A stretch of 64,000 nt of DNA, taken from NCBI RefSeq assembly GCF_036670015.1, contig NZ_CP137636.1, forward strand, positions 164,501 through 228,500, in the 5' to 3' direction. The notes below the pieces were generated by a model that ran no database searches, was not told where the DNA came from, and worked only from the letters and a program-made list of their open reading frames with translations. The position numbers and the translations under genes were made by a program. Below are positions 3,339 through 40,679 of the stretch, piece by piece. Every line of letters begins with the position of its first letter. Positions within the stretch are counted from its first letter, which is position 1. Origin of the DNA: Niallia sp. XMNu-256 (lineage in GTDB: Bacteria; Bacillota; Bacilli; Bacillales; Cytobacillaceae).

Positions 3339-3485
3339 CTTAAAAACTCCTCTCAGAGTATTACCTACTCTTAGGATGAAGAAATGAACATAAAATTATT
3401 CGTCTTGAATCATATGCCTAGATTTTTCTAATTTTCGTTGATACAATTCAATAAACGGAACATTTTGATAATGGGGGATACAATT

Positions 3486-4115
3486 GTGACAAGTCGAAAT
3501 GTAGTAAAATTATTTTTTTCAACTCTTCTTATTGGAGGATTTGTAACGAGTGTAACAGGTTTTATTGTGCGTTGGGGGGAGTTTAGTCCTTATTTTAAGA
3601 ATATTGAGTTATTAAGTATCATCTCAACATTTTTTTGGTTATTTTGTTTCGGGTTCATTTTTAGTTTGGTTAGTCAAGTGGCCTTTTTTGCTTATTTAAC
3701 CGTTCACCGTTTTGGTTTATCCATTTTCCGATCGTTTTGGAATAGGGTTCAAGTTGTTCTAATTGTATTTGCTTTATTTGATTTAGTATATTTTCGTTAC
3801 CGGGCCTTTGCAGAAAATGGCGAGAGTTTGTTGCCATATTTGTATCCAGCCCTCTTAATCTTAGCCGTTGGGTTAGTAGCGGCTTATTATAAAGCAAAGC
3901 AAACGAACAAAAAGGCGTTTATTCCAGCCCTATTTTTTATGACAGTTGTGACAATTGTTGAATGGGTTCCCGTTTTACGAATTAACGATCAGAATTGGGT
4001 TTATTTAATGATCTTTCCACTGTTAGCCTGCAATATATACCAATTGTTGATTTTGCATAAATTGCATGAAAGTTCCATAAGAGAAAGAAGTGCAAAAGTT
4101 GAAAATCCGGCCTAA
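3486..4115 (+). CDS. kbaA: KinB-signalling pathway activation protein KbaA
   Basis: Integral membrane protein required for KinB-dependent entry into sporulation. About six hydrophobic segments are seen, the first right at the N-terminus (VVKLFFSTLLIGGF). GTG 3486 is preferred to ATG 3438 because GGGGG at 3473-3478 provides a ribosome site and the family begins near this position; this gives 209 residues. It is flanked by gerD and pdaB, both on the opposite strand, as in Bacillus. Confidence 0.85.
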   Translation: MTSRNVVKLFFSTLLIGGFVTSVTGFIVRWGEFSPYFKNIELLSIISTFFWLFCFGFIFSLVSQVAFFAYLTVHRFGLSIFRSFWNRVQVVLIVFALFDLVYFRYRAFAENGESLLPYLYPALLILAVGLVAAYYKAKQTNKKAFIPALFFMTVVTIVEWVPVLRINDQNWVYLMIFPLLACNIYQLLILHKLHESSIRERSAKVENPA

Positions 4116-4128
4116 ATGAGGCCGGATT
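4104..4128. terminator. Bidirectional terminator kbaA/pdaB
   Basis: Perfect 10-bp arms AATCCGGCCT and AGGCCGGATT flank a 5-nt loop that contains the end of the kbaA stop codon. It serves the converging kbaA and pdaB genes. Confidence 0.8.
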
Positions 4129-4142
4129 CTTGGATTCCTTTG

Positions 4143-4895
4143 TTATTTAATTTCCTCAGTTTTAGTACTTGCATTAGCAATCATTTCTGAAACAGTTACG
4201 AGCTTCAGACCTTTTCTTTTAATATCCTCTATAATTAGTGGGAGGGCTTTACTCGTTTGTGTAGCAGAATCTGAAGCATGCAGAAGTACAATATCTCCCT
4301 TTTTAGCCTGAGCAACATTGCTTCTAATCATGTCGGTGCCTGGATTTGTCCAGTCCTTTGAGTCAATGCTCCAATGAACTACCGTATAACCGTATCTTTC
4401 AGCAATAGATAACGTTTTTTGATCGAAATGCCCAGTTGGAGCCCTTAAAAGTTGAATATTTTTAATCCCTAATTTGTCAAAGACTGTTTTGGCTAGTGAA
4501 ATATCCCTTCTTACCTTTTCGTCTTCAAGCTCTGAATAATCCTTATACTCATACCCAAGCATTCCAATCTCATATCCCTCTTTAACCATTCGCTCTACAA
4601 GTTCAGGATGACGCTCAGCCCATGATCCAGATAAAAAGAAAGTAGCAGACTTAACATCATTTTCTTTTAAAATATCTAAGATTGGTTCTGCCTTTTCATC
4701 GCCCCATCCAATATTAAAGGTCAAAGCGATATCCTTCTCGCCTTTATAAACAGCTTTTGGGCCGTCCTTGGCTGAAAAAACAGGAACTTGTACGATATTT
4801 CCCAAATAAAAAAACCAGGCAGTAAAAAAAGAGGCAATTCCAATAATCAAAATCTGCTTAAGCGTTTTACCGTTTAATACATAAAAAAAGTTCAT
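4143..4895 (-). CDS. pdaB: PdaB-type polysaccharide deacetylase-like protein (spore)
   Basis: NodB-fold protein needed for spore stability in B. subtilis (YbaN/PdaB). There is one N-terminal membrane anchor (about 13-32), then a NodB domain beginning at IALTFNIGWGDEKAEP. The canonical TFDDG and HxxxH motifs are altered (FNIGWGDE; MLGYEYKDY), which is characteristic of PdaB and casts doubt on classical metal-dependent catalysis. The C-terminal IVLLHASDSATQT motif is intact. Length is 250 residues. The conserved neighbourhood supports the call. Confidence 0.92.
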   Translation of the reverse strand: MNFFYVLNGKTLKQILIIGIASFFTAWFFYLGNIVQVPVFSAKDGPKAVYKGEKDIALTFNIGWGDEKAEPILDILKENDVKSATFFLSGSWAERHPELVERMVKEGYEIGMLGYEYKDYSELEDEKVRRDISLAKTVFDKLGIKNIQLLRAPTGHFDQKTLSIAERYGYTVVHWSIDSKDWTNPGTDMIRSNVAQAKKGDIVLLHASDSATQTSKALPLIIEDIKRKGLKLVTVSEMIANASTKTEEIK

Positions 4896-5032
4896 TTTTA
4901 ATCACCTCGTCCACACTCTTCTTTCAATCCTATGAGTTATATCATGAAAAAATGAACTATTTTTTATAAAAAATATGGAAACTGTTTATACTACATTTAA
5001 CATATATATTTTTGCATCAAGGAGGAAAAGTT

Positions 5033-5293
5033 ATGTTGGCAATGCTTTTAAATGAAAAAGAAATTAAGGAAATGCAATATTTATTAAAAAGAGAAATGGA
5101 TGAAATTCTATATGACTTGAGAGATGAACGGATTGATATGTTCATAAAAACGGAAATGGAAGAACGGTATAAGCATTTATTTATGTTGTTTAAAAGAGTA
5201 GCACCACCTGTAGAATGTATGAAATATATACTTACCTACCAAAAGGGGAAGAGAAAGGAAAAAAACTATAGAAGGAATAAGAAAAGCAATTGA
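5033..5293 (+). CDS. Small conserved Bacillus protein of unknown function
   Basis: A strong ribosome site (AAGGAGG, 5019-5025) eight bases before ATG 5033 fixes the start, giving 86 residues. The protein is charged and helical (LNEKEIKEMQYLLKREMDE) with a basic tail, and has no membrane segment. Similar small proteins occur beside pdaB in other Bacillus as far as I recall, but no function is known to me. An inverted repeat follows it at 5353-5380. Confidence 0.7.
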   Translation: MLAMLLNEKEIKEMQYLLKREMDEILYDLRDERIDMFIKTEMEERYKHLFMLFKRVAPPVECMKYILTYQKGKRKEKNYRRNKKSN

Positions 5294-5352
5294 CACTAGA
5301 AGTATTATTTGATATATTAAAAACCATCGCTAATGAGAAATATCCTTGAAAA

Positions 5353-5388
5353 GACTTTATCTCTTAGATGTGATAAAGTCGCTTTTAT
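5353..5388 (+). terminator. Probable terminator before the tRNA block
   Basis: Perfect 9-bp arms GACTTTATC (5353-5361) and GATAAAGTC (5372-5380) are followed by GCTTTTATG. The T-run is short, so termination may be partial. Confidence 0.55.
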
Positions 5389-5418
5389 GATTCAAGAGAA
5401 TAACTTTAGAATTTCCTC

Positions 5419-5446
5419 TTGAAAAATAATAAAAAGACACTATAAT
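5419..5446 (+). promoter_or_regulatory. Sigma-A promoter for the tRNA cluster
   Basis: TTGAAA (5419-5424), a 16-nt spacer and a perfect TATAAT (5441-5446), about 75 bp before the first tRNA. Confidence 0.65.
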
Positions 5447-5521
5447 ATAAGATGTCTTTGAAAAAATAAGCTTTTGAATGAAATAGACTGCAGTACGAAT
5501 TTAGGAAGCTATAATAATTAT

Positions 5522-26541: not shown

Positions 26542-27006
26542 TTTTAACCCCTCCGGAAAACTTTTATTATCAATCATTAAAGAATTTGTAATCATAATAA
26601 ACTATTTTACAGAAATTTAAATGATCCTACTATTACATTTATCACTAGAATTCTAAATGTTGTCAAAATCATCATTTTAAATATATTTTCTAAGCTTATG
26701 ATATCTTCTATTTTTACCTTGTTGAAGGAGGGATTGTTAAACAGCCTGTCATCCAAAAAACTTATTAATTGCTGGTAAGATATTTAGCAAAGCGAGAGAG
26801 ACTTATATCACTTTTTTAGAAGACTATTTATGATATCGTTAGTATAAATTCATCACTATCCAAAGTGGAAGCGGGTGAGTAGTAAGTCTAGTAAATTTAA
26901 TTAAAGGAAACTGGATTGGAAATTAAAGTGGATAACCGTATACATCAGACTAAAATGTGGAAAATGATATAATAAATGATTAATGATCTTATTTGGAGGG
27001 AACGTT
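26542..27006. other. Divergent intergenic region upstream of selA
   Basis: About 465 bp, AT-rich. A perfect TATAAT (26968-26973) lies 33 bp before selA but has no good -35. No tRNA or riboswitch recognised. Part of it must hold the promoter of the unknown minus-strand gene. Confidence 0.4.
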
Positions 27007-28416
27007 ATGAGACAATTATTGAAATATTTGCCTCCCATTCATGAATTACAGAAACATGAAAAGTTTTCTATGTTAATAGATCAATATGGTATTGATCATA
27101 CAAACATGACGGCTATTTTGACAAATGAATTAAATGATATAAGACAAATGCTTTTACAAAATCAATGGTCTGGAATAGAACCTGGAAGTGAATTATTTAT
27201 TACTGATATTTTTAATCGATCGGAAAAGGTCATTCAACAGCAATTTCAGTACACATTAAAAAATGTAATTAATGCGACTGGAACGATTTTACATACAAAT
27301 TTAGGAAGAGCACGTTTAAGTGAACAGACGGTAGAGCATGTGGCAAAAGTTGCCTCTCAATACTCCAATTTAGAATATAAATTAGAAGAAGGGGAGCGTG
27401 GCTCTAGACATAGTCATGTGGAAGAACTAATTAAAAGGATTACCGGTGCAGAGGCGGCGATGGTCGTTAATAATAATGCTGCAGCAGTGTATTTCATCCT
27501 TCGTACGTTTGCATTAGACAAAGAGGTCATCGTTTCAAGAGGACAGTTAGTAGAAATAGGTGGCTCCTTTCGAATTTCATCTATTATGGAAGAAAGCGGA
27601 GCGAAACTTATTGAAGTAGGTACTACTAATAAAACACATCTTTATGATTATGAACGTGCGATAAATGAAGAAACACGAATGATTTTAAAAGTCCACACGA
27701 GTAATTTTAAAGTATTTGGATTTACTGAATCTGTTGAAACGGAAGAACTAGTAGACCTAACAAACCAACATGACGAGGTAATTTTTTATGAAGATTTAGG
27801 CAGTGGGGTTTTATATGATTTTCGTCAGCATGGGATTGGTGAAGAACCTGTTGTTGGTGAAGTTCTTCAGATGGGTGCCGATCTAGTTTCTTTTAGTGGC
27901 GATAAACTTTTAGGAGGGCCTCAGGCAGGAATCATTGCTGGTAACAAAGATCTAATTGATAAACTAAAAAAACACCAGCTAGCCCGTGTTTTAAGAGTAG
28001 ATAAAATGACTCTTGCTGCCTTAGAAGGAACATTAATGCATTATCTAAAAGGAAAAGATGAACTTAAGAAGGTTCCGGTTATTGGGGACTTGTTAAAAGG
28101 TAAAGAAGAATTGAAACTACGCTCAGAGAGATTTAAGGACAAGTTAAATAAGGTCTGTGACTCTTATGAGGTAAACATAATGGAGGGAACAAGTCAGGTT
28201 GGAGGCGGGACAATGCCTGAAGTATTATTACCTTCATTTGTAGTTGTATTGAAGCATAATGTTAGGTCCGCGGAAAATTTGGCAAAGACTTTAAGAGTGG
28301 ACTGTACTCCTGGCATCATTGTAAGGATCCAAAAGAATGAGATTCTATTGGATTTAAGAACCGTGAATATCGATGAAGAAGAAGTAATTATTGAGGCTTT
28401 AGCGTCTATAAAATAA
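27007..28416 (+). CDS. selA: L-seryl-tRNA(Sec) selenium transferase SelA
   Basis: PLP enzyme that converts seryl-tRNA(Sec) to selenocysteinyl-tRNA(Sec) using selenophosphate. Family motifs are seen: INATGTILHTNLGRARL, AAMVVNNNAAAVYFIL, VEIGGSFRI, and the PLP lysine in DLVSFSGDKLLGGPQAGI. ATG 27007 follows TTGGAGGG, giving 469 residues, the normal length. It is the only selenium-specific gene in the window: selB, which often follows selA, is absent here, as are selD and the Sec tRNA. It supports Sec decoding of the UGA codons in grdA, grdB and possibly cadA. Confidence 0.97.
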   Translation: MRQLLKYLPPIHELQKHEKFSMLIDQYGIDHTNMTAILTNELNDIRQMLLQNQWSGIEPGSELFITDIFNRSEKVIQQQFQYTLKNVINATGTILHTNLGRARLSEQTVEHVAKVASQYSNLEYKLEEGERGSRHSHVEELIKRITGAEAAMVVNNNAAAVYFILRTFALDKEVIVSRGQLVEIGGSFRISSIMEESGAKLIEVGTTNKTHLYDYERAINEETRMILKVHTSNFKVFGFTESVETEELVDLTNQHDEVIFYEDLGSGVLYDFRQHGIGEEPVVGEVLQMGADLVSFSGDKLLGGPQAGIIAGNKDLIDKLKKHQLARVLRVDKMTLAALEGTLMHYLKGKDELKKVPVIGDLLKGKEELKLRSERFKDKLNKVCDSYEVNIMEGTSQVGGGTMPEVLLPSFVVVLKHNVRSAENLAKTLRVDCTPGIIVRIQKNEILLDLRTVNIDEEEVIIEALASIK

Positions 28417-32525: not shown

Positions 32526-33002
32526 ATGACGATATTAAAGGGTAAACATGTTATCGCTATTGGAGATAGAGATGGAATTCCAGGACCAGCTATCGAGGAT
32601 TGTGTTAAAAGTGCAGGAGGACAAATTGCATTTGCTTCAACAGAATGTTTCGTTTGAACAGCTGCAGGTGCAATGGATCTGGAGATCCAACAAAGAGTTA
32701 TTGATACAGTTGAAAAATTGGGTGCAGAAAATGTAGTTGTTGTACTTGGTGGAGCAGAGGCGGAAGCATCAGGACTTTCAGCAGAAACTGTAACAGCAGG
32801 TGACCCAACTTATGCAGGACCGTTAGCAAATGTTGAGCTCGGCCTTAAAGTGTACCATGTCATTGAAGATGATCTTAAGGCTGAATTTGATGAGGCTGTT
32901 TATGAGGAACAATGTGGAATGATGGAAATGGTTCTTGAGGTAGATGCCATAAAAGAAGAAGTAGGAAACATCAGAAAAGAATATACAAAGTTTAACGACT
33001 AG
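32526..33002 (+). CDS. grdA: Glycine reductase selenoprotein A (GrdA), Sec at UGA codon 44
   Basis: Small selenoprotein that receives the carboxymethyl group from protein B as a Se-carboxymethyl thioselenide. ATG 32526 follows AGGAGG. The in-frame TGA at 32655-32657 is codon 44 in [13 protein letters not shown], the family's Sec site, and the frame then stays open to 33002 (158 residues). A SECIS-like hairpin follows the UGA. An annotation that treats UGA as stop would show only the fragment from 32673. The recoding is standard for this family; only the mechanism components outside the window are unseen. Confidence 0.96.
32674..32689 (+). promoter_or_regulatory. Bacterial SECIS-like hairpin of grdA
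   Basis: Stem TGGATC/GATCCA (6 bp), loop TGGA, with the loop starting 22 nt after the UGA. The length, spacing and a G among the first two loop bases fit the bacterial SECIS consensus. Confidence 0.8.
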
Positions 33003-33026: not shown

Positions 33027-34334
33027 ATGTTACGTGTCGTACATTATATAAATCAGTTCTTCGGCCAAATTGGTGGTGAAGAAATGGCTCACATTGCTCC
33101 TGAGAAGAGAGAAGGTCTTGTTGGACCAGGAGCAGCATTAAATAAAGGTTTCAAAGGTGAAGCAGAAATCGTTGGAACCATCATTTGTGGTGACTCATAC
33201 TTTGCAGAAAACCAAGAATCAGCCGAACAAGAAATACTTGATATGGTTAAATCGTTTAACCCAGACATTTTTATTGCTGGACCTGCATTTAATGCAGGAA
33301 GATATGGAACAGCTTGCGGTGCTGTTGGTAAATTGGTGAAGGAACACCTTAACATTCCAGTCGTTTCAGGTATGTACATTGAAAATCCTGGTGCTGACAT
33401 GTTCAAAAAGGAAATTTATATCGTTTCTACAAAGAACAATGCAGCTGGTATTAGAGATGCAGCTCCAAAGATGGCTTCTCTCGCTTTAAAGCTTGCTAAA
33501 GGTGAAGAAGTAGGAGCACCAGAAGTAGAAGGATACATCGAAAGAGGTATTAGAAAGAACTACTTTGCAACTGAAAGAGGATCAAAGAGAGCTGTAGACC
33601 TTCTTGTTAAGAAGATAAAGGGCGAAGAGTTCGTAACAGAATTCAAAATGCCTGACTTCGATAGAGTAGACCCAGCAGCACCAGTTGTTGATATTACAAA
33701 GGCTAAAATTGCGATCGTTACATCAGGCGGGATCGTTCCAAAGGGTAACCCTGATCATATCGAAGCTTCTAACGCGCAAAAATTCGGTGAATATGATATC
33801 GAGGGCTTAATGGATCTTACTGGTGAAACCCACCAAACAGCTCACGGTGGTCATGACCCAGTATACGCGAACGAAGACCCAGATAGGGTCATTCCTGTTG
33901 ACGTATTAAGAGATATGGAGAAGGAAGGAAAGATCGGAAGTCTTCATAGATATTTTTACTCAACTACTGGTAACGGTACAGCTGTTCTTAGCTCTAAGAA
34001 GTATGGTCAAGAAATTGCTAAGAGATTAATCGCTGACGGAGTTCAAGCTGTTATTATGACTTCGACCTGAGGAACTTGTACAAGATGCGGTGCATCTATG
34101 TTAAAAGAAATCGAAAGAGCAGGACTTCCTATCGTTCACATGTGTACAATCGTTCCTATTTCAATGACAGTTGGAGCAAACAGAATTGTTCCTACAATAG
34201 CTATTCCACATCCGCTTGGAAACCCTAGTCTTTCACCGGAAGATGAAAAGGCATTAAGAAGAAAAATGACTGAAACAGCTCTTAAGGCTCTTCAAACTCC
34301 AGTAGAAGAACAAACTGTATTCGAAGTACAATAA
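33027..34334 (+). CDS. grdB: Glycine reductase selenoprotein B (GrdB), Sec at UGA codon 348
   Basis: Large selenoprotein subunit of glycine-specific protein B. It attacks the pyruvoyl-bound glycine and passes the carboxymethyl group to GrdA. ATG 33027 follows AGGAGGAGG; N-terminus MLRVVHYINQFFGQIGGEE is typical. The in-frame TGA at 34068-34070 is codon 348 in MTST-U-GTCTRCGASM, the known UxxC redox site, and the frame continues to 34334 (435 residues). Other motifs: GPAFNAGRYGTACG and GGIVPKGNPDHIE. A perfect SECIS-like hairpin follows. Confidence 0.96.
34083..34097 (+). promoter_or_regulatory. Bacterial SECIS-like hairpin of grdB
   Basis: Perfect stem AGATGC/GCATCT with loop GGT beginning 18 nt after the UGA; extendable by ACA/TGT across a bulged A. 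G is at the first loop position. Confidence 0.82.
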
Positions 34335-37267: not shown

Positions 37268-37657
37268 ATGAATAAAAAAGATAGCTGTGAGATTTACTGT
37301 TATGATGAAGAAAAGGTCAATCGAATTCAAAGGGATTTACGCACAGTAGATTTTTCTAGTGTTGCCCAAATGTTAAAGGCGATTGCGGATGAAAATCGAA
37401 CGAAAATTACTTATGCCTTATGTCAAGATGAGGAATTATGTGTGTGTGATATTGCAAATATCATAGGTGTTACTGTAGCGAATGCTTCCCATCATTTACG
37501 TACACTTCATAAACAAGGGATCGTGAAGTTTAGAAAAGAAGGGAAACTGGCATTTTATTCTTTAAATGATGAACATGTCAGACAAATCATGATGATTGCG
37601 CTGGCGCATAAGAAAGAGGTGAAAAATAATGTCAAATCAGCAAGCAAAACCAACTAA
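37268..37657 (+). CDS. cadC: CadC, ArsR-family metal-sensing repressor
   Basis: Winged-helix repressor of metal efflux that releases DNA on binding Cd(II), Pb(II) or Zn(II). The four metal-site cysteines Cys7, Cys11, Cys58 and Cys60 (SCEIYC; ELCVCDI) are at the same positions as in CadC of pI258. The recognition helix VANASHHLRTLHKQGIVKF is intact. Length 129. Two operators lie upstream. Its end overlaps the true cadA start by 29 bp, so the two genes are co-transcribed and probably translationally coupled. Confidence 0.93.
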   Translation: MNKKDSCEIYCYDEEKVNRIQRDLRTVDFSSVAQMLKAIADENRTKITYALCQDEELCVCDIANIIGVTVANASHHLRTLHKQGIVKFRKEGKLAFYSLNDEHVRQIMMIALAHKKEVKNNVKSASKTN

Positions 37658-39758
37658 AGACGAAATAAAAACATACCGAGTTCAAGGGTTTTCCTGAGCT
37701 GGCTGTGCAAAAACGTTCGAAACGAATGTAAAACGCCTGGATGGTGTTATAGATGCAAAGGTAAACTTTGGTGCTTCTAAAATTACGGTTATGGGCCATA
37801 CAACGATCGAAGCCCTTGAAAAAGCAGGTGCTTTTGAAAACCTAACATTACGAGGAGAAAATGAAGAAATGCTAAAGCCAGAACCGTTTTGGAAGCAGAA
37901 GGAAACCATCAAAGTTTATATTTCAGCCCTTTTACTTGTGGTTAGTTGGTTTTTAGGGGAGCAATATGGTGAAGAGCATTATCTTCAAATAATGGGTTAT
38001 GCAGCAACCATATTAATTGGTGGATACAGCCTTTTTATGAAAGGACTCAAAAATTTAAGTCGATTAAAGTTCGATATGAACACACTCATGACGATTGCTA
38101 TTATTGGTGCTGCCTTTATTGGTGAATGGGGTGAAGGGGCAACTGTTGTTATTTTATTTGCGATCAGTGAGGCCTTAGAGCGTTATTCAATGGATAAAGC
38201 TCGCCAATCGATTGAATCTTTAATGGAAATAGCTCCAAAAGAGGCATTGATTCGCCGTGGGAATATAGAAATGATGGTTCACGTGGATGAGATTGTCGTT
38301 GGCGATATTATGATCGTAAAGCCTGGTCAAAAGTTAGCAATGGATGGAATAGTTGTAAAGGGTACATCGACATTAAATCAGGCGGCCATTACCGGTGAGA
38401 GCATCCCTGTAACTAAAACAATTGCTGATGAGGTATTTGCTGGTACATTGAATGAAGAAGGTTTGTTGGAGGTAAAAGTAACAAAACAAGTTGAAGATAC
38501 GACATTATCGAAAATCATCCATCTTGTAGAAGAAGCTCAAGCAGAAAGAGCACCATCTCAAGCGTTTGTCGATAAATTTGCAAAATACTATACTCCAGCT
38601 ATTGTTGCTATTGCACTTCTAATTGCTGTTATTCCTCCATTACTTGGAGGGGATTGGAACGAATGGATTTATCAAGGTTTAGCTGTATTAGTAGTTGGTT
38701 GTCCTTGTGCCTTAGTTGTTTCTACACCTGTTGCGGTTGTTACAGCCATAGGCAATGCGGCAAAAAATGGCGTTTTAATTAAGGGTGGGGTCTATTTAGA
38801 GGAGGCAGGACACTTAAAAGCCATTGCTTTTGATAAAACAGGAACATTAACAAAAGGGATTCCTACTGTAACAGATATCATGACGTTTGTTGGGAATGAA
38901 AATGAGTGGATGAGCATAGCTGCAGCGATTGAAAAAGGATCACAACATCCACTTGCTTCAGCGATTATACGAAAAGCAGAGGAAAAAGGCTTAAAATTCA
39001 ATGATGTTACGGTTAGTGACTTCCGATCTATTACAGGTAAAGGCATTAAAGCAAAGGTCAATAACCAAATGTATTATGTCGGAAGCCTGAATCTTTTTAA
39101 GGAGTTATATGGCAGCATTGAAAATGACAAAGAACAAATGATTGTTGAAAGGCAGAACGAAGGAAAGTCTGTTATGATTTTGGGAACGGAAAAGGAAATT
39201 CTTTTGCTCATTGCTGTAGCTGATGAAACGAGGGAATCATCTAAAGCAGTAATTGGCAAGTTGAACAGTATGGGAATTCAAACTGTCATGCTGACAGGTG
39301 ATAACCGAAGGACTGCAATTGCCATTGGAAAAATAGTCGGGGTTTCTAATATTAAAGCTGACTTGCTTCCAGAAGGAAAGTTGAACTTCATTAAAAAACT
39401 TCGCGAAAACCATCAAAGTGTGGCGATGGTGGGGGATGGAGTGAACGATGCTCCAGCACTTGCGGCGTCAACAGTTGGTGTAGCGATGGGTGGTGCCGGA
39501 ACGGACACAGCATTAGAAACGGCTGATATTGCTTTAATGTCTGATGATTTAAGCAAGTTGCCATATACGATCAAATTAAGCCGTAAAGCCTTAACGATCA
39601 TTAAGCAAAATATCACTTTTTCTATTGCTATTAAACTAGTAGCATTGCTGTTGGTAATGCCTGGTTGGTTAACATTATGGATAGCGATATTTGCCGATAT
39701 GGGAGCAACATTACTTGTAACATTAAATAGTTTACGATTAATAAAAGTAAAAGAATAG
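37629..39758 (+). CDS. cadA: CadA-type Cd/Zn/Pb P-type ATPase with putative selenocysteine (UGA codon 23) in the HMA motif
   Basis: Heavy-metal efflux ATPase (P1B-2). Reading from ATG 37629, the single in-frame TGA at 37695-37697 (codon 23) stands where the first Cys of the HMA motif belongs: [19 protein letters not shown]. The frame continues to 39758, 709 residues, the family length. Six or more membrane helices; transport motif CPC (358-360), phosphorylated Asp402 in DKTGTLT, the HP motif in [18 protein letters not shown] and [11 protein letters not shown] are intact. If UGA were a stop, restart at ATG 37791 would give a 655-residue pump lacking the HMA domain. Host-like codons. Alternatives are a recent nonsense mutation or sequencing error; the Sec context makes recoding more attractive. 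Confidence 0.8.
37714..37724 (+). promoter_or_regulatory. Candidate SECIS hairpin of cadA
   Basis: Stem CGTT/AACG (4 bp) with loop CGA; the loop begins 20 nt after the UGA, between the spacings of grdB (18) and grdA (22), and has G at its second position. The stem is short, so this is suggestive only. Confidence 0.45.
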
Positions 39759-39945: not shown

Positions 39946-40320
39946 GTGACTTATATATGGGTTGGTATAGCTGGATTTTTGGGAGCCACTTTAAGGTATC
40001 TAGTTGGGGTAGTTTTGTTTGAAGAAGGTACTGTATTTCCGTTGGCCACGTTAATTGTCAACTTATTAGGGAGCTTTTTGTTGGCTTGGCTAACAACTGT
40101 GGCTTTTATGAAATTTCCAATTCCCTCCCACTTCAAAACTGCCATAGGAACAGGCTTTGTTGGCTCATTCACGACTTTTTCAACATTTAGTGTGGAAACG
40201 GTAAAGTTATTTCAGGAAAACCATCTACTTTTAGGAATTATATATGTATTTGTTAGTTTGTTTGGAGGATTAGCAATGTGTCACTTAGGGTTTATAAAGA
40301 ATAGAGGAAGAAATTTATGA
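39946..40320 (+). CDS. crcB: Fluoride channel CrcB/FluC, subunit 1
   Basis: Small fluoride-exporting channel protein (124 residues, four hydrophobic helices). Family motifs GGxxGAxxRY-like (GFLGATLRYLVG), NLLGSFLLAW and the fluoride-path segment GFVGSFTTFSTFSVE are present. GTG 39946 follows GGAGGGAATG. Its end overlaps the second crcB by 4 bp (ATGA), as in species that make the channel from two paralogues. Confidence 0.93.
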   Translation: MTYIWVGIAGFLGATLRYLVGVVLFEEGTVFPLATLIVNLLGSFLLAWLTTVAFMKFPIPSHFKTAIGTGFVGSFTTFSTFSVETVKLFQENHLLLGIIYVFVSLFGGLAMCHLGFIKNRGRNL

Positions 40321-40679
40321 CTTTAGGCAATTTGCTGTTAGTGGGAGTTGGTGGGTTTTTCGGAGCAATCACGCGTTTTTCGGTGAGTCAATTTATCAAT
40401 AATAGATTTACTTTCAATATACCTATGGCAACTTTAATAATAAATTTATTAGGTTCTTTTCTTCTCGGATTAATCTTTGGATTGGGTTTAAGTCAACCCC
40501 TTTTATGGCTGTTCGGTACTGGCTATCTGGGAGCATTTACGACATTTTCAACATTCAAATTAGAGGGAGTACAGCTTCACTTAAACAATAGAAAAAAGGA
40601 ATTCTATATATATAACGGCATTACTTATTGTGGTGGCATTACCTTGGCTTATTTAGGTTTTATGATGGGCCAATTTTAG
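40317..40679 (+). CDS. crcB: Fluoride channel CrcB/FluC, subunit 2
   Basis: Second FluC subunit, 120 residues. GFFGAITRFSVSQF, NLLGSFLLGLIFG and GYLGAFTTFSTFKLE correspond to the motifs in subunit 1. Translation is coupled through the ATGA overlap. Protects the cytoplasm from weak-acid accumulation of fluoride. The ion-pore Asn and Phe residues are conserved. Confidence 0.93.
   Translation: MTLGNLLLVGVGGFFGAITRFSVSQFINNRFTFNIPMATLIINLLGSFLLGLIFGLGLSQPLLWLFGTGYLGAFTTFSTFKLEGVQLHLNNRKKEFYIYNGITYCGGITLAYLGFMMGQF

Follow-up and report, generated by a model that had tools for sequence, protein, structure and literature searches.

The cadA gene of Niallia sp. XMNu-256 carries an in-frame UGA at the codon for the first cysteine of its HMA metal-binding domain, and comparative analysis indicates that the gene very probably encodes a selenoprotein form of CadA, a P1B-type ATPase predicted to export Cd, Zn or Pb. 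It was found in a stretch of 64,000 nucleotides (the window, i.e. the whole of the DNA that was analyzed), where the UGA is followed by an RNA structure that is SECIS-like, as judged by its position and its conservation among homologs. The selenocysteine (Sec) reading rests on the presence of the Sec machinery, the association of UGA-type genes with SelB, the Cys found at the same codon in relatives, the compensated hairpins downstream of the UGA, and selection on both sides of it, all of which supports the interpretation offered in an earlier sequence-only reading of the window. While decoding as Sec is well supported, for the role of the selenium we infer that the selenolate of U23 is probably a metal ligand, the chief rival being a redox role.

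The source genome comprises 4.36 Mb in 4 contigs, and in the window selA is followed by a glycine reductase operon, with cadC-cadA after it (Table 1). Starting at ATG 37629, the cadA frame is interrupted by a single TGA, at codon 23, and then remains open to 39758. The motif at the TGA is GFS-U-AGC, the UGA taking the place of the first Cys in the CxxC of the HMA domain. Both the open reading frames and the translation agree with the sequence-only reading in this respect; the overlap of cadC with the start of cadA that it described amounts to 29 nt, and the in-frame TGA codons of grdA and grdB as well as the upstream selA were all located. With the TGA read as U, CadA scored 615.8 bits against TIGR01525 (cut-off 346.25) and 522.4 bits against TIGR01512 (cut-off 313.5), and Pfam domains for HMA, E1-E2 ATPase and hydrolase were identified. 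The ATPase models thus pass their cut-offs regardless of the HMA domain having UxxC and not CxxC. By eye, the translation contains CPC, DKTGT, TGES, HP and GDGVNDAP, which we take to be functional motifs of P1B heavy-metal ATPases, and the ELCVCD of CadC is presumably a metal-site motif. The UGA-containing motif has one match in the window and none in 100 shuffles. After cadA, at 39946-40679, there are two adjoining short ORFs that by eye resemble crcB-type fluoride exporters.

Table 1. Coordinates of the cadCA locus, its RNA hairpins and the genes used for comparison in the window.
Feature	Position	Strand	Description	Model match
selA	26983..28416	+	selenocysteine synthase	TIGR00474 at G000:C1:191522-192904 (own genome), 559 bits, over cut-off
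UGA of grdA	32655..32657	+	glycine reductase selenoprotein A, internal comparison	
UGA of grdB	34068..34070	+	glycine reductase selenoprotein B, internal comparison	
cadC	37268..37657	+	ArsR/SmtB-family metal-sensing repressor, 129 aa, first of the pair	NF033788 and PF01022 over cut-off
cadA	37629..39758	+	P1B-type heavy-metal ATPase, 709 aa with one UGA read as U	
HMA metal-binding domain of cadA	37671..37823	+	residues 15-65, holds U23-A-G-C26	Pfam PF00403
In-frame UGA of cadA	37695..37697	+	codon 23, predicted selenocysteine codon	
Stem-loop 1	37713..37729	+	conserved 4-bp core 37715-37718 / 37724-37727, loop GAAAC; probable SelB-binding hairpin of the SECIS	
Stem-loop 2	37733..37747	+	5 bp, loop TGGAT	

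A genome devoid of selB, selD and selC was the case that the sequence-only reading had itself held against a Sec codon. Here, SelB, SelD and tRNA-Sec are all present, together with SelA. The selD gene (L099, G000:C1:2181479-2182399, outside the window) has an in-frame TGA of its own, in the motif TKAG-U-GCK, and is a further selenoprotein gene. By employing a strict sequence pattern, we found the UGA form of cadA in 73 out of 397 Bacillales genomes, distributed over 37 of 136 genera, and the reversed pattern used as a control gave no match; given the strictness of the pattern, 73 is a lower bound. SelB was over its cut-off in 71 of these 73 genomes, compared with 108 of the 324 others (Fisher p 2.4e-26, a test that ignores kinship). 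With SelB present in a total of 179 of the 397 genomes, the Sec trait is evidently common in Bacillales. In the set of 61 nearest genomes, 15 were without SelB at the threshold used, and among the eight of these where codon 23 was read it was UGA in none. The two SelB-negative genomes with the UGA form are of different kinds. One, a fragmented assembly (G235), has tRNA-Sec and SelA over cut-off. In the other (G202), none of SelB, SelA and tRNA-Sec reaches its cut-off, and the UGA of its cadA would consequently stop translation. The matching contig (NZ_SNUY01000100.1, 8.7 kb, labelled Halalkalibacterium halodurans DSM 497) holds a UGA-type cadCA at 3344-5491 (L130) that is otherwise intact, and which is either a recent arrival or part of a contaminant contig. 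In 14 well-known control genomes, the models for SelB, SelD, SelA and tRNA-Sec were over cut-off in 2, 2, 1 and 5 genomes, respectively, which makes tRNA-Sec alone the weaker evidence.

The genome without Sec machinery is one of the points that would favor decoding of the UGA as Trp or Cys by a near-cognate tRNA, with the hairpins serving as a readthrough stimulator. Leaky decoding of UGA as Trp does occur in Bacillus, and the inserted residue is not identifiable from comparative data. Nevertheless, we regard this explanation as very improbable, in view of the uneven distribution of SelB, of the alternative to UGA at codon 23 being Cys in the loci read, and of the resemblance in hairpin distance and early loop G to grdA and grdB of the same genome. 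Selenocysteine is thus the preferred identity of residue 23.

The sequence-only reading had directed attention to codon 23 in close relatives, and both of the states it named, Cys and UGA, occur there. Codon 23 was read at 60 loci (one of them a repeat), which cover 53 of the 61 nearest genomes; it is UGA in 32 genomes and Cys (TGT or TGC) in 23, two genomes having both forms. The second Cys, at codon 26, is TGT or TGC at all 60 loci. Scanning named genomes with the pattern yielded at least 120 stretches. Among the matches listed, 118 give a CadA with the TGA, and two have no CadA match, namely L103 (labelled Nitrospirae) and L168, where the match lies at the end of the stretch. The carriers of the UGA form among the matches listed belong to e.g. 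Neobacillus, Mesobacillus, Cytobacillus, Peribacillus, Robertmurraya, Rossellomorea, Alteribacillus and Virgibacillus, and further include Bacillus methanolicus PB1, the plasmid pBO1 and three MAGs labelled Desulfoscipio. On pBO1, a RefSeq CDS crosses the UGA in frame, i.e. annotators there already treat it as coding. The UGA-type cadA genes on two contigs labelled as Desulfoscipio geothermicus MAGs (L145 and L219) have no ATG, GTG or TTG between the upstream stop and the UGA. A CadC homolog precedes 126 of 145 UGA genes, and likewise 20 of 21 domains of the Cys type. Bacillus sp. J33 (L213, 1071-6295) has tandem cadC-cadA pairs, one with Cys and the other with UGA at the HMA site. A lone stop in an open frame has the look of a fresh nonsense mutation, but a pseudogene or a sequencing error can practically be discounted as the source of a codon that recurs in 73 of 397 genomes and in 118 of the 120 named-genome stretches listed, in a gene that is moreover under purifying selection.

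That selection was estimated on both sides of the UGA, with a pN/pS of 0.12 before it (codons 13-22) and of 0.16 after it (codons 41-66). Such low values imply that both sides are translated. Over 516 UGA pairs, pS amounted to 0.094 in codons 29-40, which hold the stems, as against 0.611 upstream of the UGA and 0.556 downstream. The corresponding values for the Cys pairs, which number only 11, were 0.495, 0.247 and 0.421. The next stop lies within the available DNA for 84 of 156 UGA genes, and 83 of these 84 are open for 669-695 codons past the UGA. The sole UGA-type cadA of the 84 that is cut short (L230) ends 479 codons after the UGA.

If the UGA were a real stop, the product would be a CadA of 655 residues, lacking the HMA domain and initiated at ATG 37791, and without read-through the sole long table-11 ORF listed at cadA does begin there. 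However, no ATG occurs in codons 24-82 of 132 of the 156 UGA genes (counting ATG only, not GTG or TTG), meaning that the internal start giving the 655-aa ORF is not conserved. The short form, which the sequence-only reading had considered as the outcome that would speak against it, is accordingly not what the relatives have in common. By eye, AGAGGTG stands ahead of 37629, while no Shine-Dalgarno sequence was seen ahead of 37791. A real stop also conflicts with the purifying selection on codons 13-22 and 41-66, and it leaves the association with SelB and the hairpins unexplained. Altogether, we find termination at the UGA very improbable indeed, and the full-length selenoprotein the reading to be preferred.

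Regarding the RNA, the sequence-only reading had described one hairpin with a G in its loop, placed as in grdA and grdB. This hairpin is present, and its placement was reproduced, with the loop at 24-28 nt from the U of the UGA in cadA stem 1, at about 25-28 in grdA (where the fold started one base inside the TGA) and at 21-23 in grdB, but the conserved hairpins number two and not one. Counted from the same U, stem 1 joins positions 20-23 to 29-32 and stem 2 joins 39-42 to 48-51. GrdA and GrdB, presumably redox enzyme subunits, are thus like cadA in having a UGA and then a small hairpin with an early loop G at a near-equal distance, whereas in the stretches folded they have one hairpin each at that place, as opposed to two in cadA. 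Taken one by one, none of the hairpins of cadA, grdA and grdB in the window is strongly exceptional, as shuffles folded equally well in 7 of 200 cases for cadA (z -2.1), 55 of 200 for grdA and 11 of 200 for grdB; the cadA pair is only modestly stable. The cadA site stands out from chance through comparison, namely by the absence of its motif from shuffled sequence and by the recurrence of the UGA form in 73 Bacillales genomes.

For comparison of the hairpins among homologs, 217 matches were divided into 184 UGA genes of sufficient length and 23 Cys-type domains (E < 1e-20), the other 10 being unused. After 28 genes identical over the first 99 nt were set aside, 156 distinct UGA genes were left. 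Stem 1 was formed in 98.1% of these, stem 2 in 97.4% and both in 95.5%. In a null model that kept the protein and redrew synonymous codons according to usage (200 draws), the corresponding means were 48%, 25.5% and 12.4%, and the maxima 58.3%, 36.5% and 18.6%, respectively. An origin of the hairpins in protein conservation alone was rejected on these grounds. In the Cys-type domains (n=23, from 20 genes), stem 1 was formed in 39.1%, which is not above the null (mean 31.5%, maximum 47.8%). Stem 2 was formed in 0 of 23 (null 0), an absence that is uninformative since the amino acids of these domains already exclude it.

Compensation was also evident from the pairs themselves. In 62 UGA genes at most 90% alike, 97.1% of 558 cells were paired and 17 had changed on both sides, and none of 500 shuffles reached as high in these two respects. 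Column make-up alone was rejected as the cause of the pairing, given that partners slid by 1-3 columns were paired in 33-53%, although slid versions generally score below a structure that was itself inferred from the sequences being tested. Of the four conserved pairs of stem 1, two are invariant; in the two that vary, both partners are third codon positions. Covariation in stem 2 connects the second position of a His/Arg codon with the third position of a Gly codon, the codon pairs being CAC+GGT (135), CGC+GGC (9), CGC+GGT (4) and CTC+GGA (1). The covariation terms from RNAalifold were weak because most columns barely vary, and the synonymous-codon null and the pair counts were used instead. 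An extension of stem 1 by pairs 18-34 and 19-33 was tried and rejected, as it was formed in 39.7% against 39.4% in the null.

One stem is missing as drawn in seven of the 156 genes, i.e. stem 1 in L204, L223 and L249, and stem 2 in L048, L058, L059 and L200. The latter four are distant UGA-type cadA genes with a different and longer hairpin, whose arms are GCUC/GAGC and which lies nearer the UGA, at offsets of about 14 to 29 nt counted from its U, as if their SECIS had been replaced. Another four genes outside the class of the window (L275, L276, L278 and L279) have the UGA at the same codon and a longer hairpin with a loop offset of 24-28. Since the grdA and grdB hairpins lie at a near-equal distance, and the loop offset is the same in these four, stem 1 is a better candidate than stem 2 for the SelB site.

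The distribution of the two forms was analyzed in a quick tree with 117 U and 23 C rows (140 in all), from which the HMA columns around the trait were left out and 30 of 147 U rows more than 90% alike were dropped. The 23 C rows come from 20 genes, as three genes contribute two HMA domains each. At least 11 changes between the forms are needed, five of which are forced by well-supported branches, compared with a shuffled mean of 21.7. Each form is thus clustered, and neither is a single clade; some long branches meet in this tree, many of its forks are open, and the direction of change is not readable from it. The body of the window's CadA is nearest to four Cys-type genes (86-88% identical), whereas its HMA domain is only 68-71% identical to those four and up to 88% identical to U-type domains. 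After the window's own, the 21 nearest HMA domains are all U-type. The gene thereby appears mosaic-like, which would be explained either by recombination that exchanged the HMA domain or by rapid divergence of this domain once the Cys line had lost Sec. Full-length identity to the best plasmid homologs of CadA is about 85%, and codon 23 is TGT in the three that were read, from Bacillus licheniformis, Exiguobacterium acetylicum and Rossellomorea marisflavi (one identical gene). The forms also differ in a short motif: 138 of the 156 Sec forms have HLDG or RLDG, while 13 of the 23 domains of the Cys type have xLPG or xIPG.

As to what the selenium does, the closest single-domain solved relative of the CadA HMA is 2aj0/2aj1 (E 2.5e-19), a CadA HMA with CxxC in which, we assume, both Cys bind Cd. 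CxxC is likewise found in the other closest solved structures, which are HMA domains from metal ATPases and chaperones. The best-known sites of Sec are redox active centers, and in selenoproteins with a thioredoxin fold, UxxC acts as a redox motif. It is therefore conceivable, if clearly the less probable option, that CadA is a selenoprotein in which U23 and C26 constitute a redox switch (forming a selenenyl-sulfide) or take part in metal hand-over, rather than being a standing ligand pair. Many prokaryotic Sec families are redox proteins according to reviews (among PMC13188914, PMC9312934 and PMC2398784), yet one review in the same set suggests that some such Sec residues may serve as metal ligands. 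The match of the domain to HMA, its solved relatives from metal transport and the location of cadA after a metal-sensor-type gene all speak against a redox switch and in favor of U23 as a probable metal ligand.

A Sec-containing heavy-metal ATPase family is already found on published selenoprotein lists (PMC13188914, PMC9312934 and PMC2398784, available text). In the portions available, an ocean survey among these has one Sec sequence for the family, while Table 3 of Peng 2016 (PMC5029168) gives 32 selenoproteins in 25 organisms, from 5,207 genomes. This kind of selenoprotein is hence already known. The listed family (exemplar ABB15669.1), compared by description only, has UxxC and a TIGR01525 match over cut-off in common with CadA of the window. 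The available text of the lists names no Bacillales member and describes neither a cadCA operon nor a two-hairpin element. Our literature searches found no paper on Sec-containing CadA in Bacillales, though the supplementary tables of Peng 2016 may contain such species. Nor did they find any account of how widely the UGA form occurs in Bacillales, of its two hairpins, of the exchange between Sec and Cys, or of isoforms in tandem. Among other known systems, Cys-type CadA with CadC from Gram-positive plasmids and chromosomes has the same operon order and domains, but Cys where CadA of the window has U23. Judging from their names and from the available text of a review, the metal-binding (seleno)protein NF041115 (UxxU) and the mercuric transport selenoproteins resemble CadA in having Sec at a metal site. 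NF041115 is nonetheless a model of 74 positions and not of an ATPase, and the HMA of the window scores 21.9 bits against it, far below the cut-off of 95.

In the mechanism we propose, CadC would repress the operon until a soft metal binds, and SelB, bound to the hairpin or hairpins, would bring Sec-tRNA to the UGA. U23 and C26 would then hold Cd, Pb or Zn by one selenolate and one thiolate, with the selenolate favoring soft ions, and the HMA domain would either hand the metal over to the CPC site in the membrane or regulate turnover. In a Sec-poor cell, synthesis would stop after 22 residues, and making the pump would thus need selenium as well as metal. The wider picture, with Sec as a metal ligand in selenium-gated efflux, Sec-CadA and Cys-CadA as alternative isoforms for different selenium supply or different soft metals, and a double-hairpin SECIS that has shaped the HMA sequence, is a tentative one, which we consider possible rather than probable.

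The 156 natural variants provide an unusually clear view of a bacterial SECIS inside a coding sequence. A CadA whose start is called past the UGA would be deprived of its metal-binding domain. The carriers belong to a common and cultivable group in which one pump exists naturally with Sec and with Cys, the two interleaved in the tree and sometimes found in one genome, and this makes it directly testable why a cell should bear the cost of Sec for a metal ligand. Lastly, the metal tolerance of UGA-type strains may depend on their selenium supply.
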